From: an uncultured Maribacter sp.
GTDB taxonomy: Bacteria; Bacteroidota; Bacteroidia; Flavobacteriales; Flavobacteriaceae
Direction: 5' to 3'
Length of the DNA: 64,000 bases
NCBI RefSeq assembly: GCF_947496775.1
Contig: NZ_CANMDU010000003.1
Span: 62,001 to 126,000, forward strand
Shown here: piece after piece, positions 40,391-48,888 of the stretch
How positions within the stretch are numbered: position 1 is the stretch's first letter
How the letters are laid out: every line of letters starts with the position of its first letter
Translations under genes and position numbers: made by a program
Notes under the pieces: model-generated
Seen by the model: only the letters and a program-made list of their open reading frames with translations
Told to the model about the DNA's origin: nothing
Database searches by the model: none

Positions 40391-42591
40391 GAATTGCTTT
40401 ATTCATAAACTTATTCATTATTTCTATAGGCATTCATCGGTCGCTATGCTCGGTCAGTTCTTATCTTTATAGGATAATTCACAGTTAATTCTTCAGTTTC
40501 TAATGCTAAATTATAGTTGTGAATTGCTTTATTCATAAACTTATTTATTATTTTTCTATAGGTATTCATCGGTCGCTACGCTCGGTCAGTTCTTATCTTT
40601 ATAGGATAATTCACAGTTATTATCTTTATTAAATAAACAAATTTCATGTTGTGAATTGCTTTCAGTTCTTATCTTTATAGGATAATTCACAGTCTTAACT
40701 CATCAATCCAATGCCTAGCTTTTGTTGTGAATTGCTTTCAGTTCTTATCTTTATAGGATAATTCACAGTAATTAAAAATTTAAGCGTTTTTGGTCGCTAG
40801 TTGTGAATTGCTTTCAGTTCTTATCTTTATAGGATAATTCACAGTTCTTCAAAAGTCATTACTTTTTTGCCGCACGTTGTGAATTGCTTTCAGTTCTTAT
40901 CTTTATAGGATAATTCACAGTAACCATTCCTTCAGGGTTTTCTTTTGCCCAGTTGTGAATTGCTTTCAGTTCTTATCTTTATAGGATAATTCACAGTTAT
41001 CATGATGATATGGAAAAGACTTTACATGTTGTGAATTGCTTTCAGTTCTTATCTTTATAGGATAATTCACAGTATATATCTCAATATCTCAATCAATGTA
41101 TCTGTTGTGAATTGCTTTCAGTTCTTATCTTTATAGGATAATTCACAGTATTCTTTAATTATTGTATTTGATCCAAATAGTTGTGAATTGCTTTCAGTTC
41201 TTATCTTTATAGGATAATTCACAGTCACCACACTTTTTTTATAAAAAACACAGTTGTTGTGAATTGCTTTCAGTTCTTATCTTTATAGGATAATTCACAG
41301 TTGTTTAGTAGAAAGTAAAGCTATGTCTGTAGTTGTGAATTGCTTTCAGTTCTTATCTTTATAGGATAATTCACAGTTCTCTTTAGATGTATCGAAACTT
41401 TTATCTGTTGTGACTTGCTTTCAGTTCTTATCTTTATAGGATAATTCACAGTTAAAGAATTAGTACTTATTGTTGTTGCATCGTTGTGAATTGCTTTCAG
41501 TTCTTATCTTTATAGGATAATTCACAGTAGAAACTCCTTTAGCGAATAACTCTGTCCCGTTGTGAATTGCTTTCAGTTCTTATCTTTATAGGATAATTCA
41601 CAGTCCTGAGCGACCTGTGCCTTTTAACTTGCCAGTTGTGAATTGCTTTCAGTTCTTATCTTTATAGGATAATTCACAGTTATTATCTTTATTAAATAAA
41701 CAAATTTCATGTTGTGAATTGCTTTCAGTTCTTATCTTTATAGGATAATTCACAGTCCCGCAATATTAAATCTGTTTTCAATGGCAGTTGTGAATTGCTT
41801 TCAGTTCTTATCTTTATAGGATAATTCACAGTAATGTATCTCAATGTATCTCAATGTATCTCGTTGTGAATTGCTTTCAGTTCTTATCTTTATAGGATAA
41901 TTCACAGTTTTTTCCTTTTATTTTAGAGTGCTCCATGTGTTGTGAATTGCTTTCAGTTCTTATCTTTATAGGATAATTCACAGTTATATACAAAAGTAAA
42001 TCCAAAATTAAATGTTGTGAATTGCTTTCAGTTCTTATCTTTATAGGATAATTCACAGTAAAGGGTTGCTACTTATTGTCGTGGCATCGTTGTGAATTGC
42101 TTTCAGTTCTTATCTTTATAGGATAATTCACAGTTATATAAAATTTACCGTCGAAATCTGTAATGTTGTGAATTGCTTTCAGTTCTTATCTTTATAGGAT
42201 AATTCACAGTAAGAGATACTTTTGATTATACCCAAGCAGATGTTGTGAATTGCTTTCAGTTCTTATCTTTATAGGATAATTCACAGTATACTTTAAACTA
42301 ATAGTTTCACTAACTCTGTTGTGAATTGCTTTCAGTTCTTATCTTTATAGGATAATTCACAGTAGACTCTGGTAAGCCCATAACCTGTTGCCAGTTGTGA
42401 ATTGCTTTCAGTTCTTATCTTTATAGGATAATTCACAGTAAGAAACAGCGTTTGTTTAAATAGTAATTCGTTGTGAATTGCTTTCAGTTCTTATCTTTAT
42501 AGGATAATTCACAGTTCTTTCCCAAATTTAATGTTGTTTTTAATAGTTGTGAATTGCTTTCAGTTCTTATCTTTATAGGATAATTCACAGT
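40391..42591 (+). CRISPR. Type II-C CRISPR array, 28 repeats and 27 spacers
   Basis: The 46-bp repeat begins GTTGTGAATTGCTTTCAG and ends GGATAATTCACAGT. There are 26 full copies, starting at 40648 with a 76-bp period and ending with 42546-42591. Spacers are mostly 30 nt, with a few of 29 and one of 31. The repeat ends form an 8-bp inverted repeat (TGTGAATT / AATTCACA). One copy (41407) has a single change (GTTGTGACTTGC). The two leftmost copies (about 40391-40485 and 40516-40617) are split by 54- and 56-bp inserts, and the first has lost its 5' end, so I take the left as the old (trailer) end. The plus strand is transcribed: the antirepeat at 48982-48999 pairs with the 5' part of the plus-strand repeat. 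Confidence 0.98.
40401..40586 (+). repeat. Two related inserts inside the two leftmost CRISPR repeats
   Basis: The inserts at 40401-40454 (54 bp) and 40531-40586 (56 bp) both begin ATTCATAAACTTATT and end CGGTCGCTAYGCTCGGT, with a handful of substitutions and a 2-bp length difference. Both sit at the same point, after repeat base 15, and the remaining 31 bases of the repeat follow intact. No target-site duplication is visible. Confidence 0.85.
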
Positions 42592-42660: not shown

Positions 42661-42687
42661 GAGGTCTCGACTGCGCTCGACCTGACA
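42661..42687 (+). repeat. Palindrome-type repeat unit between array and cas2
   Basis: A unit with core CTCGACTGCGCTCGA followed by CCTGACA. The 27 bp are the exact reverse complement of 43179-43205, so cas2 is enclosed by a perfect 27-bp inverted repeat. A degenerate partial unit (GACTGCGCTTGATC) follows. Confidence 0.85.
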
Positions 42688-42727
42688 AGACTGCGCTTGA
42701 TCTAATATTTTTAAACTCTATTTTGTA

Positions 42728-43078
<351 letters not shown>

Positions 43079-43107
43079 TTATATATTAAAAAAACAATGG
43101 CATCTAA

Positions 43108-43205
43108 TCAAGCGCAGGCGTGTCAAATCAAACACAGTCTTGTCAGGACGAGCGAATTTATCAAGTCGAGCGCAGTCGTGTCAGGTCGAGCGCAGTCGAG
43201 ACCTC
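43108..43205 (-). repeat. Tandem palindrome-type units, left of the GIY-YIG gene
   Basis: About five units with a period near 20 bp share the form GTCARGTCGAGCGCAGTCG (for example 43163-43178 and 43179-43201), with the degenerate ones on the cas2 side. The orientation is opposite to the units on the other side of the GIY-YIG gene. Confidence 0.75.
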
Positions 43206-43568
43206 AGTCTGGCTTATACTTATAATGACTAGCATTCCTACATTCTGCTAAAATTTTTAGCATTTTATCATCGCCATTTGCTAAAGCCCATTTCTTTTTA
43301 CTACTCCATTTTTTAATTTGTTTCTCTACTAAAATAGCTTGTTCAATATCATTGAACATTTGGTTCCATATTAAATGCACTGGTCTTCTCTTATAGGTAA
43401 AACTGCTTTTATTTTTACCTAGCTGATGTTCTTCTAATCTTCTGCTTAGATTATTAGTAAGGCCTGTATATAAGAGACCATCTTGGCATTTTAGTATGTA
43501 AACAAAATAGGTTTTCATGATTTGTTATTAATTGACATAATTTGTTCTCGACTGCGCTCGAACTGACA
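43179..43568 (-). mobile_element. Candidate GIY-YIG element with terminal inverted repeats
   Basis: A 390-bp unit: inverted repeat 43179-43201, the GIY-YIG gene, and inverted repeat 43546-43568. The two 23-bp ends match at 22 positions as reverse complements. The gene's stop codon is only 2 nt inside the left repeat, so the element contains almost nothing but the gene. It lies between cas1 and cas2, which are normally adjacent. Mobility is inferred from this structure; no target duplication can be identified because the flanks are themselves repeat units. Confidence 0.5.
43204..43518 (-). CDS. GIY-YIG nuclease family protein
   Basis: 104 residues, a single GIY-YIG domain. The two strands YFVYILKCQDGLLYTGLTNN carry the GIY (here VYI) and YIG (here YTG) equivalents; the catalytic Arg is in LSRRLEEHQLG and the metal-binding Glu in AILVEKQIKKWSSKKKWAL. 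This small UvrC-N-terminus-like group is common in Bacteroidota and has no defined role; related domains nick DNA in repair or homing. It is transcribed with the cas genes but is not a known Cas protein. The flanking inverted repeats suggest it belongs to a separate element. Confidence 0.92.
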   Translation of the reverse strand: MKTYFVYILKCQDGLLYTGLTNNLSRRLEEHQLGKNKSSFTYKRRPVHLIWNQMFNDIEQAILVEKQIKKWSSKKKWALANGDDKMLKILAECRNASHYKYKPD

Positions 43569-43826
43569 AGGTTACTCGACTACTCTTGAATTAACAAGGA
43601 AACTCGACTGCGCTTGAACCGAAAAAAGTTACCTGATTCCACTCAAACTGACAAGGTTACTCAACTGCGCTCGAACTGACAAGGTTACTCGACTACTCTT
43701 GAATTAACAAGGAAACTCGACTGCGCTTGAACCGAAAAAAGTTACCTGATTCCACTCAAACTGACAAGGTTACTCGACTTCACTTGAACTGACATGGTTA
43801 CCCTACTGCGATCGAACTGATATTGG
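43545..43826 (+). repeat. Tandem array of ten palindrome-type units between cas1 and the GIY-YIG gene
   Basis: Ten units of 27-29 bp follow the plan TTACTCGACTGCGCTCGAAC then TGACAAGG, with variation. A higher-order duplication is clear: 43551-43662 recurs at 43664-43775 with a 113-bp period and no difference that I can see. This explains most of the 333-bp stretch 43519-43851, which has no gene. Confidence 0.9.
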
Positions 43827-43851: not shown

Positions 43852-44754
43852 TTACAACTTTAATTCTGGATATAATATTCTTCGGCTACTGCCATAAAAA
43901 CACTCGTATAAACTATTGGTGGTACGGCTCATAGCATTCATTAACGGGCTTTTTTTACCATCTATCACCACATCCATTGCGGGTATTTGCAATAATTCGG
44001 TTTTTAATTGGGTATTAAGCTCTTCTATTTGGCAACCCGTAGCTACTAGATCATAGACCAGCATATCTACAAAAGGCCTATACGCCTCCATAATATCATC
44101 TGCCAAACAAAATGCATTGTATTTATTTCTATGGAATATACCTACACTGGGTAACATACCGCTACTTACCAAAGCCCTTGCCGTTACGGCACGTAATATG
44201 GCATAGCCATAATTTAAAAGGTTGTTTGGCGCTACTCCCTTTTGGTTACGACTAAAGCCTTCTATACCTATAAATAACTCCTGAAAATAGTACGCCGCAG
44301 CATAGGCTTCATGGTTTTGAGCATCACCGCTTTTTACTTCTTTTGCCCAGCGTTTTAACTTTAAGGCGTTTTTAGATTGTACTAATAAATGCTGGGCTTG
44401 GTTCTCAATTTTTGCCTGTACGGTTTGTTGCCATAATTGCTTTTTTAAAGGTACGCTGGCATTTAATTGGTGACGCATACGCTCCGTCTGTTCTGTATGC
44501 CCTACCAAGGGTTGTAAAAAACCACGGGGTAAATGTTGCTTATCGCAGGTTATAACAGCTGTTTTATTTTGTACCAATTTCATTAATAAACCAGTAGTAA
44601 TGGTTATTTGCGAGTTTTCTAAAACTACAAAACCCAAATCTTCTATGGCTGCCGTTCTTTCTTCTTTATCCTCTTCTGGGTATGTTGCTACCAATTGCTC
44701 ATTTCGGGTACTTAAATAGGCTGGTTTTCCAAAAAAGAGAGTGCGTTTTATCAT
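43852..44754 (-). CDS. cas1: CRISPR-associated integrase Cas1 (type II)
   Basis: 300 residues. The active-site residues are Glu149 (QNHEAYAAAYYF), His208 (VGIFHRNKYNAF) and Glu223 (LADDIMEAYRPF). The N-terminal beta domain begins MIKRTLFFGKPAYLSTRN, as in type II-C Cas1 proteins. With Cas2 it forms the complex that inserts spacers at the repeat. It starts 9 bp after the cas9 stop, so cas9 and cas1 share a transcript; cas2 is displaced by the insert region. Confidence 0.97.
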   Translation of the reverse strand: MIKRTLFFGKPAYLSTRNEQLVATYPEEDKEERTAAIEDLGFVVLENSQITITTGLLMKLVQNKTAVITCDKQHLPRGFLQPLVGHTEQTERMRHQLNASVPLKKQLWQQTVQAKIENQAQHLLVQSKNALKLKRWAKEVKSGDAQNHEAYAAAYYFQELFIGIEGFSRNQKGVAPNNLLNYGYAILRAVTARALVSSGMLPSVGIFHRNKYNAFCLADDIMEAYRPFVDMLVYDLVATGCQIEELNTQLKTELLQIPAMDVVIDGKKSPLMNAMSRTTNSLYECFYGSSRRILYPELKL

Positions 44755-44763
44755 AACTAAAAA

Positions 44764-47700
44764 TTAATATTCCCCAACTTGTACTATTTGTCCTAAATGA
44801 TTTGTTCTAACTTTAATAATATTATTAACTGCCATTGGACTCCTTAACCTTTTATAAGTAAAATCCAAATTATTAGTAACCATAGTCTCTAGATGATGTC
44901 TAAACCTATAATCCTTTTCACTTATAGATTGTATTCTAAATAAATATTTACTAATTTCTTTAGCATTTTTTGTACTTAATAAATCCATTTCATTTGGCTT
45001 AAAATCTTCGGTTGAAAAAACAAACATTTCGTTTTGCTTCATTGTAAACAAAAATTGCCAACCAAGGTGTTTGTTATAATCTTTATCGATTATTGAAAGG
45101 CCAGAATTAACGCGTTGTACAGCTTCATAAAACGACACTACCTTTTCTTGCAGTTTACCCTTAATGTCTTTATAAATAGCAACATGATGGTTGTTTCCAG
45201 TACTCACAAAGTCATTTTGTACTGGTTTTCCATTTTTATCTAGAATTAAATTACCATTATGGTCTCTTTTTTCATGAAGTGCTTCTACATTATTTACACC
45301 AGAAATGGTAACGCGTTTTACCGCAATACCTTTTTCTTTATTTAACCAAATGGGGTTATTGTCTAAATCTGAAAATGCTTCTTTAGCATTTCCATTATAA
45401 GCTTTTAAACGTGTTTTAAGAAGTGTTTTTATATTACTATCTATAATTTTATCTAGACTCTTTTCGTTTTTAAAATTATCTGCATTGACAGCTTTTCTAA
45501 TGGTATAAATATCTTCATAACAGAACACTTCTTTTATAAGTTTGTTGTTAAAAATCAACGGCTCTTTCTTAAGTGTTTTTGTATCAAAAGCTTTTAAAGT
45601 ATCATTATTATATTTTACTAAATATTCTAATAAATAATGCTTTATTTGAGGATTAATAATATTGCTTATCTGTTCTAAAGTAATTCGCTTATTAATTTTT
45701 ACGGTATTATCCATTGGTTGTTTAGATTTACCATAAACCGTTTCTTTATGCAATTGACCTCTTGGTGTAAGCTGTATCTTAGATTTGAAGTTCTGCTTCC
45801 CTTTTAATCTAGTTTTGTTAATGTTTTTAGTTACTACTTTATTCTTTGTCTTAAAAGAAACTATAATAGATTCAATATGCTCTTTGGCTTGAGTACGAAA
45901 ATTAGACATTGGAGCAATAAACTTTTTTTTACCCTCACTATTTTTATGGGTTATTACTTTTTCTATGGCAATAATATTTGAATGTTTTTTATGTTTAACA
46001 TCCTTTCTGGCATTTAAGTTATTAAGGTATTGTATATGATTATGCGTTGTAAATGCAACCGTTAATGCATCCATTGCATGATGGCGGTGATCGTTACGTT
46101 TGGTCCAATCCTTTATTACTTCAACTTTTTTATTACCTTTTCTTGTTTGTATTTCTGTTAAGCCTAACGCTTTATATTTTGGAAGGTTTAACTCTTTCAT
46201 GACGTTAATTAAATCCCAATCTTCCCTCAACTTATCTGTTATTCTTCCGGAAGTTGAAACTATAGGCTCTCTAACCAATTCTTGTAACAAGGATTTAGCT
46301 TTTTTAGCTATGTATTGCGAGTTTCGTAAGTCTCTTTCTATAGAACCATCTGGTAAGTTTTCTTGACTCAACAATAATTTTTTATATTTTGACTTACCAA
46401 TACCATTTCCTTTATTAAAAAGTGACTCAACTCTATTTTTGTAATTTTCTAAATCATTATTAAAATCACTTTCAACAAAATCTAGTGCCGTTCTATCTCT
46501 TTTTTGAAGGTTTATTTTTCTGTAAGCTAAGGTTTTATTAGAAAAAGAATCGCCAAACAACATAGCTTTTGGAATAATGTGTTCAATATCTATTTCTTTT
46601 GAAAAGAGTTTCTCTTTAGGAATATACTTGTTAGTAAAAACAGTTTTATAGCCTAAATTTTTTAATTCTTCATACAAACGATATCTAACAACATCATTTT
46701 TTGTTGGGTTAGGAATCCCAAACTCCTTAGAGATTAATTTTCTAACATCCTCATTTTCCTTGGTACGTTTTGTAATAAAAGAGGTTGCATCTTTACGTTC
46801 TGACGCTGATTTCTTAAGTTCTCTGGCTAATTCTATTCTAACTTCATCTGGTTTTCCATAAGTTTCAATAACTTGATTCACCAAATTCACCACTTGATTT
46901 AATATTTTTTCCACAACAGGATTTCGCAAACTGTTTTTAGGCAAAAGCTCTAAGGTATCTTTTAAAACCCGTTTGTCTAAATCATCCTTGGTTAAGCTAT
47001 TGGAATGATTATAGCCAGCTAGTCTACAAGCTTCTGAAAACTCGTTGCCACTTTGTAGAAAAGGCAAAACTTTACGAATAGCTCTTGCCGATAAGCTACC
47101 GTAATCTTGTTGCAACTTTATGTTTGCTAACCATTTAGCATACTCTGGTTTAAAACCATATTTATTGTGTAGTTTCTTTTTTAATGCAACGCTAGAATTA
47201 CCATAAACTAATTTATCATCTTCATTAATTTTATGGTCGTCTTCGGCTGAATACAACAAGTGCCATAACTGGTAACTGGCTTGCTTATCAAAATCAGTAT
47301 TTTCTTTATACGCGTTGAAATCTAAAACTTCTGGGGTAATACCTATTTCTGTAAAAACTGCGTCTAATTCTTCTTTAATTTCGGAAGCCGATTTTTTAGT
47401 CCAGTCAAAGCCATAACCTTCTAAATCTGCTATTTCTTTGAAAATGGAATAGAGTTCTTGGTTTGTTCTGTTACCTTCAATTTTCTCAAAATTACATTTC
47501 CATTCTTTCGTTTTCTTGCCTAAAAATTTAAGAACATCATTAGCTTTTAAATCGCCCCTTACATTTAACTCCTTAAAGAGTAATATCTTGGTTTCTTCAT
47601 CTAAGATATAATCGGCTTCAACCTCTTCATTAAATAAATTATTCGATTTCCCGTCTATTCGTTTAAATTGTATGTTATTAAGATTTTGCCAAATTTTAAA

Positions 47701-48888
47701 CTCTTGAAACAAAGGCGAAGATTTAGGAATCGCCTTATGGTGTTTTTCAAATTGGCAATTAGAAATTAAATGTTTTTGTGATTTTAACCTTCTTTGATAA
47801 AATATAATAACATCTCTTACTTCTTCTTTTAACTCTTTAGTTAAAACCGAATGATGTTTAGCTTGGATTTCCCAAATTTGCTCAAACTCATCTAGATAAT
47901 CTTGCCTATAAAACACTCGATTTTTAAGTGATGTATTTGGGTTTTCTTTTATTTGCTTATTCAGATATTGACCAACTGTAATTTTATCAAAATAAAGCTC
48001 CTTACTTCTATCGCTTATAGCGCCCAAATAACCACTTGATTTATTAGTATCATTATTTATTTCCTGTAAAACAATAGCTAAATGTTCTAAATCTAACTGC
48101 TCTGACAAAGCTTTTGCTCGTAGCTGATACTTTTTTAGTTTTTGCTCCTGAGCTTTCCCATCTAGCTTCTTACCAACAATATTGAAAGGTTTTTGACAAA
48201 TAGTCCATGTAGCACCTTTGTTTTTACCTTGTAGCTCTTTGTACAATTCATTCGTTAAAATTTCTGAATAAAATATTTTTTGAGTGTTCCAAACTTTATC
48301 CCATTCACTTTGTAAGTCGGAACGATAAAACTCTGGGAGGTACTTTTTATCCTGTTTTAGTAATTGGTAAACATATTGACCAGGAGTTAGATTCTTCTCA
48401 TATAATTCTTTGGCAACTGACATTCCATCAATTGCTACACCCTCATCTTCGTTTACCGCTTTTCTACTACTTTTATAACCTCTTTTTTTATTAATTGCCA
48501 GCAAAACTCTTGCCAAATTTTCCAATTCAATTTTCTCAACAGCAGCAGTAGCTCTTAACCTTAACGTTTCATGTGTAGTTCCTTTACCAATTTCAGTTAA
48601 AGGTGTTTTACTAGAAATTATTTTGTGTTTTTCTAATATCTCTATTAAATACTGCCTTCTGAGTTTAAAACGCTGTAGATTTCTTCTTGCTCCACGTTTT
48701 AATGTTCTATCCGCATTAACAGATAGTGGTCTTCCTTTTTCAAAATCGGTTTGTTCATCAGTAGTTAAGGGATTTACTCTAACCCCTAACTCTATAATTT
48801 TTGATTTTTCTTCTTTATTTTCTGCTTCGTTAACTAATGCCCAACCAATACTGGTAGTCCCCAAATCAAGGCCTAAAACTTTTTTCAT
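44764..48888 (-). CDS. cas9: CRISPR-associated endonuclease Cas9 (type II-C)
   Basis: 1374 residues. RNA-guided double-strand DNA nuclease. RuvC-I is LGLDLGTTSIGWAL with Asp8. The arginine-rich bridge helix follows (RGARRNLQRFKLRRQYL). RuvC-II is VRIELARELK with Glu686, HNH is IDIEHIIPKAMLF with His770, and RuvC-III is HHAMDALTVAF with Asp940. All catalytic residues are present. The C-terminal region is the PAM-interacting part. The length is large for II-C but usual for Bacteroidota members. No csn2 or cas4 is present, which fits II-C. The upstream gap holds the tracrRNA gene and candidate operators. Confidence 0.98.
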   Translation of the reverse strand: MKKVLGLDLGTTSIGWALVNEAENKEEKSKIIELGVRVNPLTTDEQTDFEKGRPLSVNADRTLKRGARRNLQRFKLRRQYLIEILEKHKIISSKTPLTEIGKGTTHETLRLRATAAVEKIELENLARVLLAINKKRGYKSSRKAVNEDEGVAIDGMSVAKELYEKNLTPGQYVYQLLKQDKKYLPEFYRSDLQSEWDKVWNTQKIFYSEILTNELYKELQGKNKGATWTICQKPFNIVGKKLDGKAQEQKLKKYQLRAKALSEQLDLEHLAIVLQEINNDTNKSSGYLGAISDRSKELYFDKITVGQYLNKQIKENPNTSLKNRVFYRQDYLDEFEQIWEIQAKHHSVLTKELKEEVRDVIIFYQRRLKSQKHLISNCQFEKHHKAIPKSSPLFQEFKIWQNLNNIQFKRIDGKSNNLFNEEVEADYILDEETKILLFKELNVRGDLKANDVLKFLGKKTKEWKCNFEKIEGNRTNQELYSIFKEIADLEGYGFDWTKKSASEIKEELDAVFTEIGITPEVLDFNAYKENTDFDKQASYQLWHLLYSAEDDHKINEDDKLVYGNSSVALKKKLHNKYGFKPEYAKWLANIKLQQDYGSLSARAIRKVLPFLQSGNEFSEACRLAGYNHSNSLTKDDLDKRVLKDTLELLPKNSLRNPVVEKILNQVVNLVNQVIETYGKPDEVRIELARELKKSASERKDATSFITKRTKENEDVRKLISKEFGIPNPTKNDVVRYRLYEELKNLGYKTVFTNKYIPKEKLFSKEIDIEHIIPKAMLFGDSFSNKTLAYRKINLQKRDRTALDFVESDFNNDLENYKNRVESLFNKGNGIGKSKYKKLLLSQENLPDGSIERDLRNSQYIAKKAKSLLQELVREPIVSTSGRITDKLREDWDLINVMKELNLPKYKALGLTEIQTRKGNKKVEVIKDWTKRNDHRHHAMDALTVAFTTHNHIQYLNNLNARKDVKHKKHSNIIAIEKVITHKNSEGKKKFIAPMSNFRTQAKEHIESIIVSFKTKNKVVTKNINKTRLKGKQNFKSKIQLTPRGQLHKETVYGKSKQPMDNTVKINKRITLEQISNIINPQIKHYLLEYLVKYNNDTLKAFDTKTLKKEPLIFNNKLIKEVFCYEDIYTIRKAVNADNFKNEKSLDKIIDSNIKTLLKTRLKAYNGNAKEAFSDLDNNPIWLNKEKGIAVKRVTISGVNNVEALHEKRDHNGNLILDKNGKPVQNDFVSTGNNHHVAIYKDIKGKLQEKVVSFYEAVQRVNSGLSIIDKDYNKHLGWQFLFTMKQNEMFVFSTEDFKPNEMDLLSTKNAKEISKYLFRIQSISEKDYRFRHHLETMVTNNLDFTYKRLRSPMAVNNIIKVRTNHLGQIVQVGEY

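Follow-up and report, generated by a model that had tools for sequence, protein, structure and literature searches.

A GIY-YIG nuclease gene between inverted REP hairpins in a Maribacter cas locus: a candidate GIY-YIG counterpart of the REP/RAYT elements

What is a small nuclease gene, enclosed by two inverted copies of a palindromic repeat, doing between cas1 and cas2, and is the arrangement peculiar to this one locus? The question arises from a stretch of 64,000 nucleotides of an uncultured Maribacter sp. (contig NZ_CANMDU010000003.1, positions 62,001 to 126,000), which in its full length is referred to here as the window. We argue that the window unit is probably a selfish element of ~0.4 kb with the order REP-nuclease-REP, that is, the GIY-YIG counterpart of RAYT/REP, and that its nuclease is one of a set of cognate enzymes dedicated to CGTC/TGTC-headed REPs across phyla.

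The unit and its repeats in the Maribacter locus

The features of the locus are collected in Table 1. An earlier note on this DNA had described a 104-residue GIY-YIG gene between 23-bp inverted ends identical at all but one position (22/23), with 2 nt between the stop codon and the left repeat, and the coordinates bear this description out. The gene lies on the same strand as cas2, cas1, and cas9 of a type II CRISPR locus. Both TGTC heads are outermost: read on the gene strand, the 5' repeat consists of TGTC followed by the hairpin, with an inverted version of it on the 3' side. The REP array on the left flank runs opposite to that on the right, as had also been reported, the left one being the shorter and mostly degraded. 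What had been missed is an inverted REP copy beyond cas2, which is also present in two further Maribacter loci (L025 and L026).

Table 1. Features of the unit and of the surrounding host locus, in window coordinates.
Feature	Positions	Strand	Basis and remarks
GIY-YIG nuclease gene, 104 aa	43204..43518	-	ORF list; PF01541, E 1e-16
REP 5' of the GIY-YIG gene	43546..43568	-	inverted repeat; gene strand reads TGTCAGTTCGAGCGCAGTCGAGA; head outward
REP 3' of the GIY-YIG gene	43179..43201	+	inverted repeat; head outward; stop codon 2 nt away
Tandem array of 10 REP copies, ~28-nt period	43546..43824	-	repeat families; includes a 113-nt duplication
Array of 4 REP copies, mostly degraded	43103..43198	+	repeat family
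Further REP pair beyond cas2	42661..42707	-	inverted copy of 43159-43205 (47 nt, 89%)
cas2 (host locus, outside the element)	42728..43078	-	profile matches
cas1, type II (host locus)	43852..44754	-	profile matches
cas9 (host locus)	44764..48888	-	profile match
CRISPR array, at least the part shown (host locus)	41500..42591	.	letters and repeat analysis

The repeats are concentrated at this one place. When CTCGACTGCGCTCGA is searched for with up to 3 mismatches, the window yields 13 matches, all of them within 42666-43815, against a shuffle expectation of 0.18 matches per window (100 shuffles, largest 3). Across the 3.96-Mb genome, there are 12 matches with up to 2 mismatches, seven of which are in the cas1-cas2 locus; the reversed control pattern gave no match in the same 3.96 Mb. 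None of the 12 adjoins any of the other six GIY-YIG matches of the genome. The scarcity of exact repeat copies outside the locus in its own genome counts against the reading that we prefer.

Five distant repeat matches (L016-L020, on contigs C7, C8, C14, C1, and C5) lie within longer dispersed repeats, which are alike by eye and contain opposed REP-like hairpins.

Flanking repeats across the nuclease subfamily

Homologs were collected by protein similarity only and, according to their record titles, come mostly from Bacteroidota, with additional members from Proteobacteria, Chloroflexota, Marinimicrobia, Patescibacteria, and others. A gene was counted as having a strong flanking repeat if the best inverted repeat between its two flanks scored at least 14, the downstream flank being 230 nt from the end of the match for homologs and 200 nt for control ORFs. 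Sixty-two of 65 homolog loci were used, L079, L087, and L088 having been dropped as partial. Strong inverted repeats flank 40/62 homologs, versus only one of 283 control ORFs taken from those loci and one of the 103 control ORFs with intergenic DNA on both sides; with equal flank cuts for homologs and controls, the homolog count is 39/62.

An alphaproteobacterial set, drawn from 115 genomes of the class to which a Hyphomicrobium genome belongs, gave the same kind of result. Here, strong repeats accompany 33/74 subfamily genes, versus 0/29 more distant GIY-YIG genes and 0/59 other ORFs. The subfamily genes are 74 of the 75 places at 55 bits or above (one at a contig edge was left out), and the distant controls are 29 of the 34 weaker places (four were left out, and L289 was too short); one gene of this set, L172, is the same as L077 of the 62 homologs. 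Among genes drawn by phylum or class, 13/29 in Chloroflexota have strong repeats (0/15 ORFs), as does one of 28 in Clostridia (0/18 ORFs). These last counts cover 29 and 28 of 29 retrieved loci (L352 was too short) and not every place, and one should keep in mind that their ORF controls are few and lie nearer the gene than in the alphaproteobacterial test.

We therefore regard it as nearly certain that this GIY-YIG subfamily is associated with CGTC/TGTC-headed REPs. The comparison made in the earlier note, of a REPIN/RAYT-like plan with a GIY-YIG enzyme replacing Y1, holds well beyond the locus on which it was based. Much of the subfamily has the REP-bounded form, though far from all of it: 22/62 homologs, 41/74 alphaproteobacterial genes, 16/29 in Chloroflexota, and 27/28 in Clostridia fall below the repeat threshold, which counts against a general rule. 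The note had added that its idea would fail if homologs lacked flanking repeats or if the repeats were equally dense elsewhere. On the first count it survives in the close clade and not in Clostridia. The second can be set aside, given the share of genome matches in the cas locus and given that 106 window-class hairpins lie in 24.6 kb (the 200-nt flanks of the 62 homologs), compared with 34 in the 451.6 kb that make up the rest of the loci, a density ~57-fold higher. A search for each gene's own repeat elsewhere in its locus gave a weak signal on which we place no weight (7 matches in 319 kb, from 5/43 loci, 2.9-fold versus the same queries in other loci).

The orientation of the repeats can be judged from the arms of the inverted repeats without reference to any motif. 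GTC is found at the outer end in 33/40 genes of the 62-homolog set and 20/33 of the alphaproteobacterial set; the reversed trinucleotide CTG is found there in 9/40 and 8/33, and an inward-facing head in 13/40 and 12/33. The window-class hairpins that flank the 62 genes point outward in 80 cases and inward in 24. Hairpins that face outward on both sides occur at 32/62 homologs and 23/74 alphaproteobacterial genes, with a single instance among the 29 distant GIY-YIG genes, 10 of which nonetheless adjoin a hairpin by either grammar. Caution is needed with the plain-stem grammar, which is loose (539 background matches in 679 kb); hairpins of either class gave 55 matches when 65.9 kb of flanks were shuffled. 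Chance is rejected as the source of the repeat pattern itself, which is not seen in shuffled sequence, at other ORFs, or at the more distant GIY-YIG genes.

The stems themselves covary. In 29 distinct GA-class repeats, the four outer stem pairs are paired in 95% of cells with 57 double-sided changes, and the covariation measure is 0.866 versus 0.264 when shuffled and at most 0.144 when slid. These repeats were chosen for a GTC head and GA...CGA and not for the outer stem; those invariant columns are uninformative, and the inner G-C of the stem is likewise invariant. Two of the five covariation measures (pairs with a double-sided change and the number of pair types) were not above shuffles. For 21 plain-stem repeats, the corresponding figures are 97% pairing and 41 double-sided changes, which are partly built in, as the repeats were chosen for pairing. 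A head-register scan of 155 genes, 95 of which scored at least 9, requires GTC and has no control, and was used only to collect repeats. In the window, the GA-class stem comprises 4 bp, the tandem GA, and 1 bp; if the letters are read as DNA, the class would carry a tandem G.A step inside its stem.

In a flavobacterial subset (L054, L058, L061, L069, and L071), a longer repeat, TGTCA-TTCGAGTG...TTGTATCGAGAA, replaces the short hairpin, as judged by eye.

The class of hairpin follows the clade of the protein. Proteins with K in the motif R-x-[K/W]-K have GA-class repeats in 40 cases and other repeats in 5, and those with W have GA-class repeats in 2 and other repeats in 31 (p 3e-14). The comparison started from 85 genes, 78 of which have K or W, after the removal of duplicates (L162, L171, and L172), proteins with stops, and one protein without the motif; four of the five cases that combine K with other repeats (L045, L051, L195, and L217) look misregistered by eye. 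On the protein tree, the GA/other character switches 9 times (mean of 200 shuffles 28.6, lowest 23), and seven finer repeat classes switch 32 times (mean 54.9, lowest 50). Since the K/W residue switches only twice, and an independent-pairs test has too few pairs for significance (2 on supported branches), the pairing of enzyme class and repeat class that these data demonstrate is one at the clade level and not a record of many co-changes. Within a single 2.0-Mb genome with 11 matches, the paralogs bear different repeats.

Sites with and without the unit, and what might have moved it

In the case of the cas locus, the earlier note had inferred that the insert split cas1 from cas2. A Cas1 search of 37 genomes found a match in 11, of which the eight best loci were inspected and three weaker matches left out. 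The order cas1-GIY-YIG unit-cas2 is present in three of the eight (G000, G007, and G004, own genome included), all from the one genus. The other five loci (G006, G018, G001, G003, and G045) lack the unit, and in each of them cas2 begins within ~40 nt of cas1 (the last four by eye); the Cas1 of G006 is 90% identical to that of the window. Because five related cas loci do without the insert, we concur that the unit has separated the two genes.

A second, independent example is a plasmid of Azospirillum lipoferum, where sufB and sufC are separated by a unit with one outward REP pair per side; in three relatives the interval measures 87-129 nt and contains no GIY-YIG gene. In Sinorhizobium, the REP-gene-REP site of S. 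meliloti Ak57 corresponds by eye to a single hairpin in Sinorhizobium sp. K101 that resembles fused outer REP halves. This is a hint, and not proof, that gain or loss passes through hairpins. At none of the Azospirillum, Sinorhizobium, and cas sites could a target-site duplication or an exact junction be read, as the empty sites are too diverged.

On plasmid p1 of Azospirillum lipoferum (L318), a gene-less outward REP pair is apparently nested in the split halves of another REP, again by eye.

Repeats are also found away from the gene. Of 60 genomes, the window's own among them, 19 have a homolog at E <= 1e-20, and 15 of these carry the GA-class pattern, compared with 9 of the other 41 (p 4.5e-5); if the window's own genus is excluded, the counts are 11/13 versus 8/39 (p 6.6e-5). 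Read backwards, the pattern is absent from all 60. That 9/41 genomes without a close homolog still have the repeats counts against a dedicated enzyme. Among the matches listed, neighbors within 120 nt (copied by hand) form 10 outward pairs, one inward pair, and 29 same-strand pairs; opposed neighbors are thus mostly outward, and tandem same-strand copies are commoner.

The likelihoods that we attach to other explanations are not exclusive of the preferred one. This applies above all to the possibility that the gene is a free-standing homing-type endonuclease that cuts gene-less sites, the REPs being insertion sites or target remnants and not ends, for the nuclease is the driver in both accounts. 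As far as the available part of PMC1564403 goes, GIY-YIG is a homing-endonuclease fold, and the fused-half hairpin of strain K101 fits gain or loss inside a REP. Against this, the flanks differ among many close homologs (18 loci, by eye), and the dispersed gene-less outward REP pairs are unlike allele-specific homing, so that we hold this explanation to be unlikely. Free-standing GIY-YIG homing endonucleases do resemble the window gene in being small mobile GIY-YIG genes; to our knowledge, they are not defined by terminal hairpins.

The same gene-less pairs could be taken to mean that the nuclease gene is inert cargo of CGTC-type REP pairs, which a RAYT or other transposase moves, and RAYT/Y1 matches were indeed found in 22/60 genomes searched (own included). 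Yet the Y1 loci of relatives, of which 23 of the 30 available were used, speak against RAYT as the mover: none of the 23 has TGTCA upstream with TGACA downstream, the palindromes there are others, and 5/23 have inverted repeats scoring at least 14. In the part of Di Nocera et al. (2013, PMC3733652) available to us, no tyrosine transposase gene is flanked by CGTC repeats. Inert cargo is also hard to reconcile with one nuclease subfamily that keeps company with different repeats in several phyla, the repeat class tracking the nuclease clade, or with the signs of constraint on the gene. The copies in the window, L025, and L026 give a dN/dS of 0.15-0.18, and across 30 homologs Y7, Y17, G19, R27, and E65 do not vary and H31 hardly does, residues of the kind that is catalytic in GIY-YIG enzymes. 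We consider a passive role for the gene quite improbable.

The only Y1/RAYT-like match of the window's own genome (L021, contig C8:78713-79036) has two in-frame TAG codons.

Could the enzyme instead be a structure-selective housekeeping nuclease of DNA repair, which resolves REP cruciforms, with the adjoining REPs regulatory or merely tolerated? PF01541 is the only Pfam family that matched, with no Y1 HUH tyrosine transposase; Pfam and NCBIfam gave no Cas family. An AlphaFold2 model (mean pLDDT 89) has as its nearest structures two UPF0213 NMR structures (BH0048, 1zg2, and EF2693, 1ywl), which are the sole matches at E <= 0.001. Slx1 (E 0.007 and above) and then UvrC follow as weaker matches, and the profile search is concordant. 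This weak likeness to Slx1 is what one would expect of a repair enzyme, as is the annotation of E. coli YhbQ as a DNA damage response nuclease, and matching Clostridia genomes mostly hold a single copy, 27/28 tested loci being without strong flanking repeats. The distribution elsewhere is patchy and sometimes multi-copy (11 matches in the 2.0-Mb genome mentioned above), and insertions between cas1 and cas2 and between sufB and sufC, together with two-sided repeats whose heads are mostly outward, are not what a resident repair gene would lead one to expect; this explanation therefore seems to us decidedly doubtful. Recruitment of the nuclease as an accessory that acts with Cas1-Cas2 merits next to no credence: three genomes of the genus keep the gene between cas1 and cas2, on their strand, but only two Maribacter loci among 18 homolog loci are recognizably at this cas site, 5/8 cas loci (own included) lack the gene, and the protein belongs to no Cas family in Pfam or NCBIfam.

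Two observations on other GIY-YIG genes should be recorded here. In one genome (G066, loci L174 and L179), the GIY-YIG matches contain several in-frame TGA codons, as if TGA were read as an amino acid. A more distant GIY-YIG clade adjoins tRNA genes, often in tandem: a tRNA is present at 7 of the 8 loci inspected (Phe twice, Pro, Val, Asn, Arg, and Ser; none in L310). At three of them (L003, on contig C3 131482-134700 of the window's own genome, L309, and L311), an exact or near copy of the tRNA 3' end (T-arm and acceptor) follows each gene copy; at L307, L308, L312, and L175, a tRNA adjoins without a series of such copies. This sample is biased, as seven of the loci were chosen for tandem copies and L175 for a tRNA end that had been noticed.

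A proposed element and its place among REP systems

To return to the REP-nuclease-REP element, we think it probable, with about the same confidence as for the element itself, that the element spreads by means of its own nuclease, which would nick the hairpins and leave the joining of ends to host repair; recognition, nicking, and repair-dependent copying are all inferred. Under this model, a minimal element (REP hairpin, GIY-YIG gene, inverted REP hairpin) would have landed between cas1 and cas2. The UPF0213/Slx1/UvrC-like nuclease may recognize the REP hairpin when the DNA is single-stranded or forms a cruciform, a substrate that is itself inferred. The features recognized would presumably be the unpaired GTC head, the covarying stem and, in the window clade, the tandem G.A interruption. 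The nuclease would then nick the head-hairpin junctions of two outward-facing REPs. Finally, host repair or replication could place a copy of the nicked unit, or of a REP pair that lacks the gene, somewhere else, often at or beside another REP. The involvement of the host is invoked because GIY-YIG enzymes are hydrolytic and have no known end-joining activity. That integration would have to rely on host functions that are only inferred counts against the model, as does the absence of cleavage or mobility data. The suggestion of the earlier note, that the enzyme could nick the palindrome and spread it, is compatible with the observations. Cutting and movement by the nuclease remain inferred; what has been established is the anatomy, the controlled association, the covariation of the hairpins, the match between class and clade, the gene-less copies, and the empty sites.

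The nearest known systems are the REP/RAYT elements (REPtrons) and REPINs, in which a single small enzyme gene likewise has, on either side, inverted copies of a short palindrome whose tetranucleotide head is unpaired; the dispersed gene-less outward pairs recall REPINs. The differences are the enzyme, which is GIY-YIG and not a Y1 HUH transposase, and the head, which is of the type [T/C]GTC (TGTC in the window) and not GTAG. We know of no covalent joining chemistry to be expected from the GIY-YIG class, unlike in REP/RAYT. As our tests place the unit outside both the REP/RAYT elements and the named insertion sequences, in spite of its REP/RAYT plan, we treat it as a new category. The enzyme shares its domain with the UPF0213 proteins (BH0048 and EF2693), E. 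coli YhbQ, and Slx1, from which it differs in that the Clostridia members are mostly without flanking REPs; we are not aware of any report of flanking REPs for UPF0213, YhbQ, or Slx1.

The repeats have a closer relative. REPs have been divided into GTAG and CGTC super-families, TGTC being a variant of CGTC (Di Nocera et al. 2013, PMC3733652), and in the sections of that paper available to us the CGTC REPs have stems of 8 or 9 bp and loops of 4 or 5, occur mostly as head-to-head pairs, and "apparently lack a dedicated transposase". The super-family includes the Neisseria repeat CGTC-1, which is dRS3, and Rickettsia RPE-4 and RPE-6 (same source, same limits). Window-type repeats agree with its definition there in having an unpaired CGTC or TGTC at one end of the hairpin. 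The repeats of the W clade fit a stem of 8 with a loop of 4 or a stem of 9 with a loop of 5 and have a tail near CCA; these repeats were sorted by that stem. The GA class of the window clade is interrupted instead, and its hairpin, with the tandem G.A, is not described in the available part of PMC3733652. The other difference is the dedicated nuclease that we propose for the window-type repeats.

A broader reading extends the proposal to the CGTC REP super-family as a whole, dRS3 and RPE repeats included: its missing dedicated enzymes would be small GIY-YIG nucleases, every clade having a hairpin class of its own. These nucleases would then form a second, independently evolved REP-mobilizing system, with a sister GIY-YIG clade acting likewise with tRNA T-arm/acceptor ends. 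We regard this as evenly balanced between true and false. A Neisseria gonorrhoeae GIY-YIG gene does lie among dRS3-like repeats, and their heads face inward, which counts against our preferred reading. In a literature search, the titles and abstracts among the matches listed made no link between GIY-YIG and REPs; preprints (bioRxiv) and most subscription papers were not covered.

With a candidate of ~100 aa whose hairpins are matched to its clade, the question of which enzyme mobilizes the CGTC/TGTC REPs becomes directly testable. If the proposal is true, it would explain many genes that are annotated merely as "GIY-YIG nuclease family protein", and REP mobility would have evolved twice, by unrelated chemistry.
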